Shown here: in pieces, positions 11,694 through 15,957 of the stretch | Layout of the letters: each line of letters begins with the position of its first letter | Position numbering within the stretch: the first letter of the stretch is position 1 | Assembly: GCF_000004075.3 (NCBI RefSeq) | Contig: NC_026658.2 | Location: 15,736,075 to 15,800,074 of the forward strand | Length of the DNA stretch: 64,000 nucleotides | Source: Cucumis sativus | Lineage: Eukaryota > Streptophyta > Magnoliopsida > Cucurbitales > Cucurbitaceae | Reading direction: 5' to 3' | Notes under the pieces: generated by a model | The model's database searches: none | Told to the model about the DNA's origin: nothing | The model's input: the letters and a program-made list of their open reading frames with translations, nothing else | Translations under genes and position numbers: made by a program

Positions 11694-11775
11694 CGTCAAC
11701 AGCAGGATTCGAACCTGCGCAGGCAAAGCCCAACAGATTTCGAGTCTGTCTCCTTAACCACTCGGACATATTGAC
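11694..11775 (-). tRNA. tRNA-Ser (anticodon CGA), copy 1
   Basis: Read on the minus strand this is an 82-nt class II tRNA. The acceptor stem GTCAATA pairs with TGTTGAC, including one T-G wobble. The D arm has the AGTGGTTAAGG box-A region, the anticodon loop CTCGAAA carries CGA (reads UCG), there is a long serine-type variable arm, and the T arm contains GGTTCGAATCC. The discriminator base is G, as expected for tRNA-Ser. A run of seven T on the transcribed strand (11683-11689) follows as the Pol III terminator. No intron. It differs from copy 2 only at acceptor-stem pair 4-69, which is A-T here and G-C there. Confidence 0.95.
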
Positions 11776-13840
11776 TGTTTGAATATAAGATCAAATGTAA
11801 TTAATATTAAGTAAAATAATATTGAATCAATTATTTAATTAGCTGCAGAAAATGTGTTTTTTTTTTTTATTTCAAAAGAATGAGAAATAAAGCAAATGAA
11901 ATCTTGTAAAATACAATATACCCTCCATTACGAGTTCTATTAATTTGAACTTTTCATATAAACATCAATTAATTTCTCCTAAACCATTTTAGGTTTATAA
12001 TTAAGATTTTTTAAATTATTCATTTAAATTATAATCATTCATTTTGTTTATTCGACCTTTGAAAAAGTTTATACATGTAAAAGAATTGATGGATTAACGA
12101 TTTTCAAATATAATCCTAATAAAAATACCATATAGGTACATTAGTGAAAATCATACTTCCATATAATAAAAGAATTCGTACAAGCTTCACCAGCCATACA
12201 GTAGGTTGCTATATTTTCAAACCTAAAATAATTGTGAAAGTTCAACTCACACCCATTGTCGAAGACATCAAACAAATAGCGTCGATGATGTTTTTCACTT
12301 CTATTAGATCCTTTGAGCAACCAATTAGAATATTGATAATTTTCAAAGCATTCGACTCAACAATAACTAGAAAACACATTTCTCAATAAAATGTGATTGA
12401 AAACATGTTTGAAACATTTTCAAATAGTTCTTATCGTAAGCGCATCATGGCCTAATTGGGATTTAGTTATGAGAAATTGTATCAGATGACAAAAACATTT
12501 AGAAAAAATGACAGTTCATGATACATTTTTTTGTATATTGCAAATATGGTAAATATGACAAGTAATTAGTGATATCGTACAACTATTAAACGACTACCAG
12601 ATGGTTGTTAGAGGGTTATTAGAGGATTATCGACTTTTAAATTTACTACTTTTGCAATTTATAAAATGTAGTGACATATGTCCTATTATTATAATATTTT
12701 TTACAATTTTTGCGAGCGCATCTTGAGTTATTGCATACCAATACAAAATTTGGAAATTTTGGAGAGTCACGAACCATTAAACTAACCCCTCCTTCTACCA
12801 ATGTTCTCAAATCATGGTGCATAAGCGTTTATCTTCACATTTGATATTGATATTTAGGGTTTTTTCGGAAATATAAAAATCGACGAACTATTTACACTCT
12901 ATAAACTAAACCACTTAAAGATCACTTTTATTACACTCAATTTTTTTATCGAGTTTAAATATTTTATCAAATATTATATTTTTTACGAGATAAATTTTAT
13001 ATAAATGTAATTATTAATTTGGAATTTAGATTGGTAAAATTAGTTTGCTATGTATGGGGTGTTTTAAGTTTTTCAAGAATTATGTTAAGTTCTAAAATTT
13101 TAAAATTAATTTTCTTAATAGTCTTAAAAGTTTTGTTTGTCCTCTGCATAACAAACTTAATGTGGTATGTGATTTGACCTTTTTATTAATTTATAAAATA
13201 TTTTGAGAAATCTCTCGGACGTGATTTTACACAAATATTTTAAAATTTCATTTATTTTCTTAATTAAAATTTTAGGTTGACCATTTTATCTTTCACATCA
13301 ATTATAAATAATATTTATTTTTAAAAATATATATAATATAATACCATAATTACATGTTATCACATTTATTATCTATTTAATGTAATAAATAATTTAAATT
13401 TTTATTTTTGCGATTTTAATATGATATAAAGTTGCGTCTAATATGGTATTAGTATATTAAATAATTTCTATAAAATAAATAAATTTATTTTTATTGAATT
13501 TCATTCAACATTCATTTCACACATTTCTACGCTTTTTCAATTTAATTGTCTTATCTTTTTAATCTATCTCTTTGTCCTATTTTTCTTATTTCGCTCACAA
13601 AATAAGGAGATGAATGAAATTAAAAAAGAAATTAACCAACTTTATTTTAGAATCACGTATTTTTACAAATTTTTATAATATAATAATACTAAATAAAAGA
13701 ATTTGGGTGTAGGATGTAAAAGTTAGAGTTGTTACCACTTTGCAATAACAACGAGATATTATTGAAATTTGTATATTTTGCATTGTTCTATTATTACGTT
13801 ACCGTTCATGCTTACTTAAAAAGAAAATCAAAATAAAAAA
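11776..13840. other. Spacer between the two tRNA-Ser genes
   Basis: About 2 kb of AT-rich DNA with no gene that I can support. It is not an obvious duplicate of the flanks, so the tRNA duplication unit seems short or its edges have eroded. Confidence 0.5.
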
Positions 13841-13922
13841 CGTCGACAGCAGGATTCGAACCTGCGCAGGCAAAGCCCAACAGATTTCGAGTCTGTCTCC
13901 TTAACCACTCGGACATATCGAC
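13841..13922 (-). tRNA. tRNA-Ser (anticodon CGA), copy 2
   Basis: 82-nt tRNA-Ser on the minus strand, same structure as copy 1: anticodon CGA, serine-type variable arm, T-loop GGTTCGAATCC, discriminator G. The acceptor stem is GTCGATA with TGTCGAC, the more usual sequence for this isoacceptor. Six T on the transcribed strand (13835-13840) follow directly as terminator. It lies 221 nt upstream of the SPC24 start codon and is transcribed away from it, so Pol III and Pol II promoters sit back to back in this gap. Confidence 0.96.
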
Positions 13923-14142
13923 GAATTTGTTTATCAAATAGAAAGAAGCTTTCAAATCAATATTGTAAATTAATAAACATTGATTTTGGCGCCTAAACAA
14001 AATCGATTTCTCTCGTTTCGGAGCCCTAGGAAGGAAGAACAGATATCGGCCCGAAGCATAAGTCCCCACCGACCACTGGAAATTCCCCTTTTTCTTCTTC
14101 ACAGCCACCTCTCCTTGTTCATATCTTCTTCAATTAAGCAAA

Positions 14143-15957
14143 ATGGGAGATTTCGCCACAAATTCCAACATTGAGGAGCTCGCATCTTTTGCCGACGATT
14201 TGGTAGCAATCTTAAAGGACCCAACTGACGTTCGTAACTTGAATCAATGTCTTGAACATTTCAAGACTCTTCAATCTTCTTGTGACGATGATTTCACTAG
14301 TGTTCAAAGCTCACTTGAAGGTATGTTGACTTCCCTTCTCTAATATGGGTTTTATTCATAATCATTTGGAGGTTTGTAATTTCGGGTCTTTTGGGGGAGA
14401 GCGAATTCATATAATTTATTTAACTAGTTACTAAACGAAGCAGATTATGAGAAGAAAATTAAAGCATGCCGGGAGAAAACAGAAGAGGCCAAAGCGAACA
14501 CTGTTGCAGATGATGAAATGGAGATTCTAGAAAAGGAACTCGAAGAGGAGATTGGGAAAGGGCATTTGCTTATGGAGGAGATAAGATAAGTGTACGATTA
14601 ACTTTAATTTTGCATTTTACTTCACGTGATTGTTTGTTCCTAATGTATTTGAGTATGTATACGATGCGCCTGGTTTTTTTCAACACATTGGTGACCAATG
14701 AGATTAATGAACTTGAATGCCGAAGGGTTTCTGTTCAAGAAAGGAAGCAAGCGATGAAGAAACTTGAGCAACAAGAACTTTGGGCTCAGTGAGTATACAT
14801 TTTCTGTTTTGAAGTTGCTTTGTCATCTGTAATTGTTAAATGTTAATTCGGTAGCAATTATCTAAATCCTGTGAATTTTGAATCTATTTCAAAATTTTGT
14901 TGTTTTTAGTATTATCTGATAAACACAGTCTTTTATGTATTGTTAGTTAGAACTTGGAAGTACAAAAGCTGTAATGTATATAAGTTATAGGTTATTGGCA
15001 CCTTTGTTTCTCCTATCGATTGCTTATGGTTAGAAAGGTTAACTAGGTAGACATTCCTCTGAAGATGGCTGCTTAGTTTTTGAACTAATGAACGTTTTGT
15101 AGGCTAATAGTTGATCCATGATATAGATAATGGCAACCTCTTTGAATGGAGTCTCTGTCCTATGTTGAAAATAGGAATCTTTTTTAAGGTATTTGAAGTT
15201 TGTAAAAGATGAGAGCGAGAAGAAACAAAGGTAACGATGATTAGTAAGCAACACTACCAAGTACAAAAAGTTGTCAAATTCATTATTTACTAAAGAGGTG
15301 AACTAGAATTACATCGAGCGTTAGGAATACAAACAAAGTCTCACATTGACTAGAAAAGAGAGAAATCTACAGTTCCATTGATATGAGGTTTTTTTTTTGG
15401 ATAAAACCAAAAGCAAAGCTGCAAAGGCTTATGCCAAAGGTAGACGATAATACACTATTGCTGAGAGATGCGGCAGATCCATTGCCCTTCATGTCTGGAA
15501 CTGTAGTACATTCCAGAACTGAATTTATGGTAGTTGAAACTATCGTATTTGTTTTAACTGTGAACTTATGAACTGGGTGGCTGTCAAAGATCCACTCAAG
15601 TTTCAGTAATATTGGTAGGCATTAATTTGACATTTCTTATCCTCTAAATTGATGTATATTTTCTATTTTTCTTGCAGGAGGAAGCTTTCAATGTATGCTT
15701 CAGTTACTGATATTATACCAAACATGGAAGATCAGTCTAAAATTTCTGGCCGTATCCTTCGTTTGAGTTTATATTCTTTTCTGTTATATTTTTCTTTTTC
15801 CTTTTGCACTTAGCCAATTACTTTACCTTAACATGAATTGACTACAGATATTGTGGACAGAAATAAACGAGTTGTCCAAAAGTTTGAATTCGACCCAGCT
15901 AAGATATCTTCTTTTGACACATGCAATGGCCTTTGGAATATGATTAATTCCCCATAG
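14143..15957 (+). CDS. SPC24: Kinetochore protein SPC24 homologue
   Basis: Five exons: 14143-14320, 14444-14585, 14687-14788, 15678-15751 and 15848-15957, giving 201 residues, normal for plant SPC24 (MUN in Arabidopsis). SPC24 is a subunit of the NDC80 complex, which links centromeres to spindle microtubules. The N-terminal half is a charged coiled coil (DYEKKIKACREKTEEAKAN, then LEKELEEEIGK). The C-terminal globular part carries KLSMYASVTDIIPNMEDQSK and VVQKFEFDPAKISSFDTC, both characteristic of the plant family. Introns 1 and 3 are GT-AG. Intron 2 (14586-14686) can be placed only as ATAAGT...CAC, because the nearby GT donor lies after an in-frame stop. Intron 4 (15752-15847) starts GTATCCTT and has CCTTAAC close to its 3' end, the U12-type signature. 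Family call firm; intron 2 is inferred from frame and homology. Confidence 0.85.
15752..15847 (+). other. U12-type intron in SPC24
   Basis: The donor reads GTATCCTTC, matching the minor-spliceosome consensus GTATCCTTT in eight of nine bases. TTACCTTAAC at 15823-15832 fits the U12 branch site, with the branch adenosine about 16 nt before the terminal AG. The 96-nt intron is in phase 1 and restores the reading frame exactly (codon CAT of SGHIVDRN). Confidence 0.85.

Follow-up and report, generated by a model that had tools for sequence, protein, structure and literature searches.

The question raised by this cucumber locus is how the second intron of a small gene can be removed when no in-frame join of the flanking exons has GT-AG ends. 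The gene occupies 14143-15957 of the window, the whole stretch of 64,000 nucleotides that was analysed, and its five exons, once spliced, form one uninterrupted reading frame, 201 codons long and closed by a stop codon (Table 1). An earlier note on this DNA had read the second intron of the gene, which it called SPC24, as a U2-type AT-AC intron. Judged by sequence, that reading accounts for the preserved frame, for a donor that matches U1 and for the tract of pyrimidines, and intron 2 is probably a real AT-AC intron.

The identity of the gene was assessed with the Pfam family Spc24 (PF08286), to which the spliced protein aligns over residues 102-196, covering 23-108 of the 109 profile positions, at 24.7 bits and an E value of 2.9e-05, the runner-up family reaching E 0.016. 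Because this score narrowly misses the curated cut-off of 25.3 bits, the gene is most likely SPC24 and not certainly so. Searched exon by exon against the whole genome (226,625,048 bases in 88 contigs), PF08286 gave no match; it is the spliced protein alone that matches. Among solved structures no relative of SPC24 was recognised by sequence (12 matches, best E 0.25). A protein search found one copy in the genome, its five matches being the gene's own five exons, and the DNA of the exon 2-3 junction region also has one match. Loss of SPC24 is reported to be embryo-lethal in Arabidopsis (PMC12595034), and with a single genome copy a full-length product is thus expected from this locus. Searches for orthologues in two collections, neither of them of plants, are uninformative on conservation: four stretches in the viral contig collection fitted a pattern and 108 were obtained from the genome contig collection, with no relative in either. 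Two tRNA-Ser genes with anticodon CGA lie on the minus strand at 11694-11775 and 13840-13923, the second some 220 bases ahead of the start codon of SPC24. A plantacyanin gene fragment agrees with cucumber basic protein at 61 of 65 aligned residues, in line with a cucumber source.

Table 1. Features of the candidate SPC24 gene, in window coordinates.
Feature	Positions	Strand	Details and basis
Exon 1, coding part	14143-14320	+	starts MGDFATNSNIEELASF; gene model, protein match
Intron 1, GT-AG, 123 nt	14321-14443	+	GTATGTTGAC...CGAAGCAG
Exon 2	14444-14585	+	ends ...GAGATAAG
Intron 2, AT-AC, 101 nt, phase 2	14586-14686	+	gene model, U1 pairing, random control
5' splice site of intron 2, ATAAGTGT	14586-14593	+	with preceding AAG, pairs with 11 nt of U1 by 8 Watson-Crick contacts and 1 wobble
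Nearby GT, behind TAA 14587-14589	14590-14591	+	3/11 U1 pairs and 3 wobbles
Putative U2-like branch site, best match, CTAAT (YTRAY 5/5)	14640-14644	+	branch A 14643, 43 nt from intron end; motif scan
AG missed in the earlier note	14652-14653	+	acceptor of nine in-frame rival joins; join listing
T-rich tract and AC acceptor, GGTTTTTTTCAACAC	14672-14686	+	sequence
Exon 3 (LVTNEINELE...)	14687-14788	+	gene model
Intron 3, GT-AG, 889 nt	14789-15677	+	GTGAGTATAC...TTTTTCTTGCAG
Exon 4	15678-15751	+	gene model
Intron 4, GT-AG, U12-type by sequence, 96 nt	15752-15847	+	donor GTATCCTTCG, branch site TACCTTAAC
Exon 5 including stop codon TAG	15848-15957	+	gene model

At the 3' end of exon 2, a terminal AAG is followed by ATAAGTGTAC, in which ATAAGT occupies 14586-14591; at the other end of the intron, TTTTTTTCAACAC terminates at 14686, directly before exon 3. 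Joining 14585 to 14687 keeps the frame in phase 2 and opens the 201-codon frame over the five exons. At this frame-restoring junction the first dinucleotide of the intron is AT and the last is AC, each end being one base away from a canonical site. The earlier note had placed ATAAGT at 14586 and a CAC ending at 14686, had described the exon 2-3 join as in phase, and had put the nearby GT behind an in-frame TAA; all of this was confirmed, with the TAA located at 14587-14589. Its statement that no suitable AG acceptor precedes exon 3 went too far, for an in-phase AG at 14652-14653 permits joins, albeit poorer ones.

Candidate joins were listed for donors at 14540-14599, exon 3 starts at 14600-14719 and eleven end combinations. 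Forty-two of the 1976 in-frame joins with any ends have one of these combinations: 12 AT-AA, 10 AT-AC, 8 GA-AG, 5 GG-AG, 4 AT-AG, 2 GC-AG and 1 CT-AC, with no GT-AG join among the 42. Nine more AT-AC joins besides 14586/14686 hold the frame, which counts against a unique choice. Since 42 in-frame joins exist, frame alone cannot single out 14585/14687; it is the donor that does so, and ATAAGT...CAC at 14586-14686 is the best of the 42.

The donor context AAG/ATAAGTGT is complementary to U1, with G at +5 and 8 of 11 positions paired. When +1 is ignored, the site makes 8 of 10 pairs, the top value among 1803 positions in the gene. By the same count over 11 bases, the intron 1 donor makes 7 Watson-Crick pairs and that of intron 3 makes 7 with two wobbles. 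Over both strands of the whole window, AT sites at the 8/10 level number 26 in 127,978 positions. AGATAAGT alone is not rare in the window (4 found, 3.75 expected), so the unlikely part is the place of the site at a boundary that the frame requires. In a random control of 20000 sequences, drawn from a first-order Markov model of 14581-14689, 3682 contained an AT-AC join, of whatever quality, that held the frame and had the same length. When a minimum of 8 U1 pairs and of 8/12 pyrimidines was required, such a join arose in 2 of 20000 (3 of 20000 when one residue more or less was allowed), and an equally good GT-AG join in 4 of 20000; the control is partly circular, because "same length" is the length of the join that the earlier note had itself chosen.

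The U1 genes of the same genome were searched for a variant that could pair with A at +1. With 41 of 2632 first-look candidates scored and five weaker matches left out, no U1 with a changed base facing +1 was found, all 15 genes over the cut-off keeping C. As none of these 15 could pair with it, the A at +1 is presumably tolerated as a mismatch. Five of the U1 genes (L016, L017, L019, L020 and L021, from base 1501) show one or two differences from ATACTTACCTG in their first 11 bases, for example ATACTTACCCG and GTACATACCTG, and may be U1 variants or decaying copies.

Further comparison of the joins was made at the protein level. Nine join variants were built and six of them scored with Pfam Spc24, a weak gauge of the earlier note's statement that the AT-AC join neither gains nor loses a residue against the family. 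The AT-AC join at 14586/14686 obtained 24.7 bits, followed by 23.4, 23.3, 23.2, 23.2 and 22.4, a lead of 1.3-2.3 bits in a total that is still under the curated cut-off. The stretches on either side of the junction differ in phase by 48 degrees, and the 3.5-residue (heptad) periodicity is 0.71 for the AT-AC join, 0.68 for the -3 join and 0.64 for the +1 join; this measure speaks against the GC-AG, GA-AG and -1 joins and does not separate the AT-AC join from the -3 and +1 joins. Taken together, the Pfam score, the periodicity and the donor favour the AT-AC join, mostly through the donor. A search of the genome allowing 3 mismatches found no stretch with the spliced exon 2-3 junction, the unspliced control being found once, so there is no processed copy to act as a witness for splicing.

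The AG at 14652-14653 offers another way to close the intron. Nine in-frame joins lead to it (2 GC-AG, 1 AT-AG, 3 GA-AG and 3 GG-AG), with net changes of -2 to +11 residues. A GC-AG or AT-AG intron ending there would turn 14654-14686 into coding sequence and lengthen the protein by 3 to 11 residues, with in-frame donors GC 14562 (+3), GC 14568 (+5) and AT 14586 (+11); the three GA-AG and three GG-AG joins are in frame as well. However, the two GC donors make 4/11 and 2/11 U1 pairs, with two wobbles each, and the +3, +5 and +11 proteins have periodicities of 0.30, 0.19 and 0.55 against 0.71 for AT-AC and Pfam scores of 23.4, 23.2 and 22.4 bits against 24.7. This AG moreover ends just 10 nt beyond the best branch A at 14643, and its use would make the T-rich tract coding. 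An intron of this kind is very unlikely.

The gene could also be broken or regulated, with SPC24 truncated at TAA 14587-14589 either by splicing from GT 14590 to AG 14653 or AG 14702 or by retention of the intron. The TAA is indeed in frame, and the GT 14590-AG 14702 join regains the exon 3 frame apart from the stop. Against this, the donor TAA/GTGTACGA forms 3 of 11 U1 pairs with three wobbles, the remaining exons are all intact, and the gene is the sole copy found in the genome, while its loss is lethal in Arabidopsis (PMC12595034). Truncation as the explanation of the locus has a very small chance of being right; a minor isoform truncated at this TAA may exist. That each intron end is exactly one base off canonical would also fit an ordinary GT-AG intron masked by errors, whether of assembly or of sequencing, at 14586 and 14686 alike. 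Such an account needs two independent errors at two critical bases and is exceedingly improbable; for the cucumber v3.0 assembly, if that is the one analysed here, substitution errors are estimated at less than 0.00024 per base (PMC6582320).

If the ends are AT and AC, the intron might belong to either spliceosome. An intron of the U12-type AT-AC class would have a ATATCCTT donor and a TTCCTTAAC-type branch site near its 3' end, and intron 2 has no such combination. Its donor matches the U12 consensus RTATCCTT at 4 of 8 letters, fewer than the ordinary intron 1 donor (5 of 8), and makes 2 U11 pairs against 5 for intron 4; it is thus no U12-type donor. The U12 branch motif is matched at 6/9 in intron 2 (42, 43, 49 and 57 nt from the end), at 7/9 in introns 1 and 3 and at 8/9 in intron 4, a count that hardly discriminates, as it fails to tell introns 1-3 apart. 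A degenerate U12-type AT-AC intron served by the minor spliceosome would suit the AT-AC ends, the U12-like intron 4 in the same gene, the U11 gene and U12 gene that the genome holds over the cut-off, and these 6/9 motifs, but the motifs lie far from the intron end, whereas intron 4 has its 8/9 site at 16 nt; together with the donor, this makes a U12-type intron 2 highly improbable. Ahead of the final AC, 9 of 13 bases are pyrimidines. Because the donor is not U12-like, U2-type is the best reading of intron 2, which would very probably be removed by the major spliceosome as a U2-type AT-AC intron.

In the proposed mechanism, U1 would pair with AAG/AUAAGUGU while tolerating the A at +1 opposite C, and U2 would take a branch site near CUAAU at 14640-14644. 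At the second step, the first-position A and the last-position C would make a non-Watson-Crick contact, as the two G's do in GT-AG introns. The AC after the T-rich tract may be chosen over AG 14652-14653 because, in this proposal, the A-C contact replaces G-G. The sequence, the frame, the donor's pairing with U1 genes of the same genome and its unlikeness to a U12 donor are observed directly; from these we infer the splicing of intron 2, its branch point and the A-C contact. It is established that the major spliceosome can splice AT-AC introns (PMC2831892, PMC6726248, PMC8283771). An intron's two terminal bases come into contact after the first splicing step and before the second, and replacement of G-G by A-C was shown in yeast and is seen in human introns (PMC8283771); in yeast, which is without a minor spliceosome, AT-AC ranks second only to GT-AG in efficiency (PMC6726248). 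The compensating exchange of first and last bases that the earlier note had described for yeast is in print (PMC8283771, PMC6726248).

Intron 4 looks like a classic U12-type GT-AG intron. Its donor carries all 8 U12 donor letters, and its branch site matches at 8 of 9, the branch A lying 16 nt before the end of the intron. A U12-type branch site lies 10-20 nt from the AG. Within the window RTATCCTT alone is no rarer than chance (6 found, 7.05 expected), so the class assignment draws jointly on the GTATCCTT donor, the CCTTAAC-type branch site and the spacing, at a boundary that the frame requires. Two rare intron classes, in introns 2 and 4, would then stand together in one small gene. In mammals, SPC24 is known as a gene with a minor intron (PMC6865273, PMC8034651) and is one of six such genes dated to after the last common eukaryotic ancestor (PMC6865273). 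An intron position common to plants and animals, if true, would bear on the dating of the SPC24 minor intron.

How such an intron arose can be framed by the proposal of Lin et al., in which the U2-type AT-AC introns of sodium channel genes derive from U12-type AT-AC introns through changes at donor positions +4 to +6, after which they are trapped (PMC2831892), a rare route. It is rather unlikely, on present evidence, that intron 2 began as an ancient U12-type AT-AC intron and was turned directly into a U2-type AT-AC intron by changes at +4 to +6 of the donor. An alternative origin is a GT-AG intron with paired changes, as both ends are a single base away from canonical. The U12-type neighbour leans slightly towards conversion, an after-the-fact argument from one gene. 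If conversion were true, a plant gene in which a converted intron stands beside a surviving U12-type intron would exemplify the Lin et al. route independently, and intermediates should appear in related plants.

Related plants could reveal the origin of such an AT-AC intron. The contact that an intron's first base makes with its last is put to a small natural test by U2-type AT-AC introns, and a single SPC24 transcript could serve to compare the dependence of two rare introns on the major and minor spliceosomes. In addition, gene finders that accept GT-AG introns only would misread SPC24, which is essential in Arabidopsis.

Among known systems, U2-type AT-AC introns are rare in plants: in Arabidopsis, as in rice, they make up 0.01% of U2-type introns, and the share is 0.05% for maize and 0 for soybean (IAOD Table 2, PMC7367187). 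The authors of IAOD caution that many of the unusual U2-type ends result from annotations placed wrongly (PMC7367187). SPC24 intron 2 is of the same class as these plant introns, judging from its sequence, and is a likely addition to the known U2-type AT-AC introns; no literature report of an AT-AC intron in SPC24 was found in a search that left supplementary splice-site tables aside, and the intron may already stand in such a table. With U12-type AT-AC introns it shares the terminal dinucleotides and differs in its donor, ATAAGTGT and not ATATCCTT, and in that no U12 branch site of good quality lies close to its 3' end. Human SCN4A intron 21, a U2-type AT-AC intron of a voltage-gated sodium channel gene, has the same AT-AC ends and G at donor +5 (PMC2831892), and its need for the major spliceosome was established by experiment, as cited in PMC2831892, whereas that of SPC24 intron 2 would follow from its sequence features. 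The two otherwise belong to a different gene, kingdom and intron. Voltage-gated sodium channel genes also carry a U12-type intron, and SPC24 resembles them in having an apparent U12-type intron beside a U2-type AT-AC intron.
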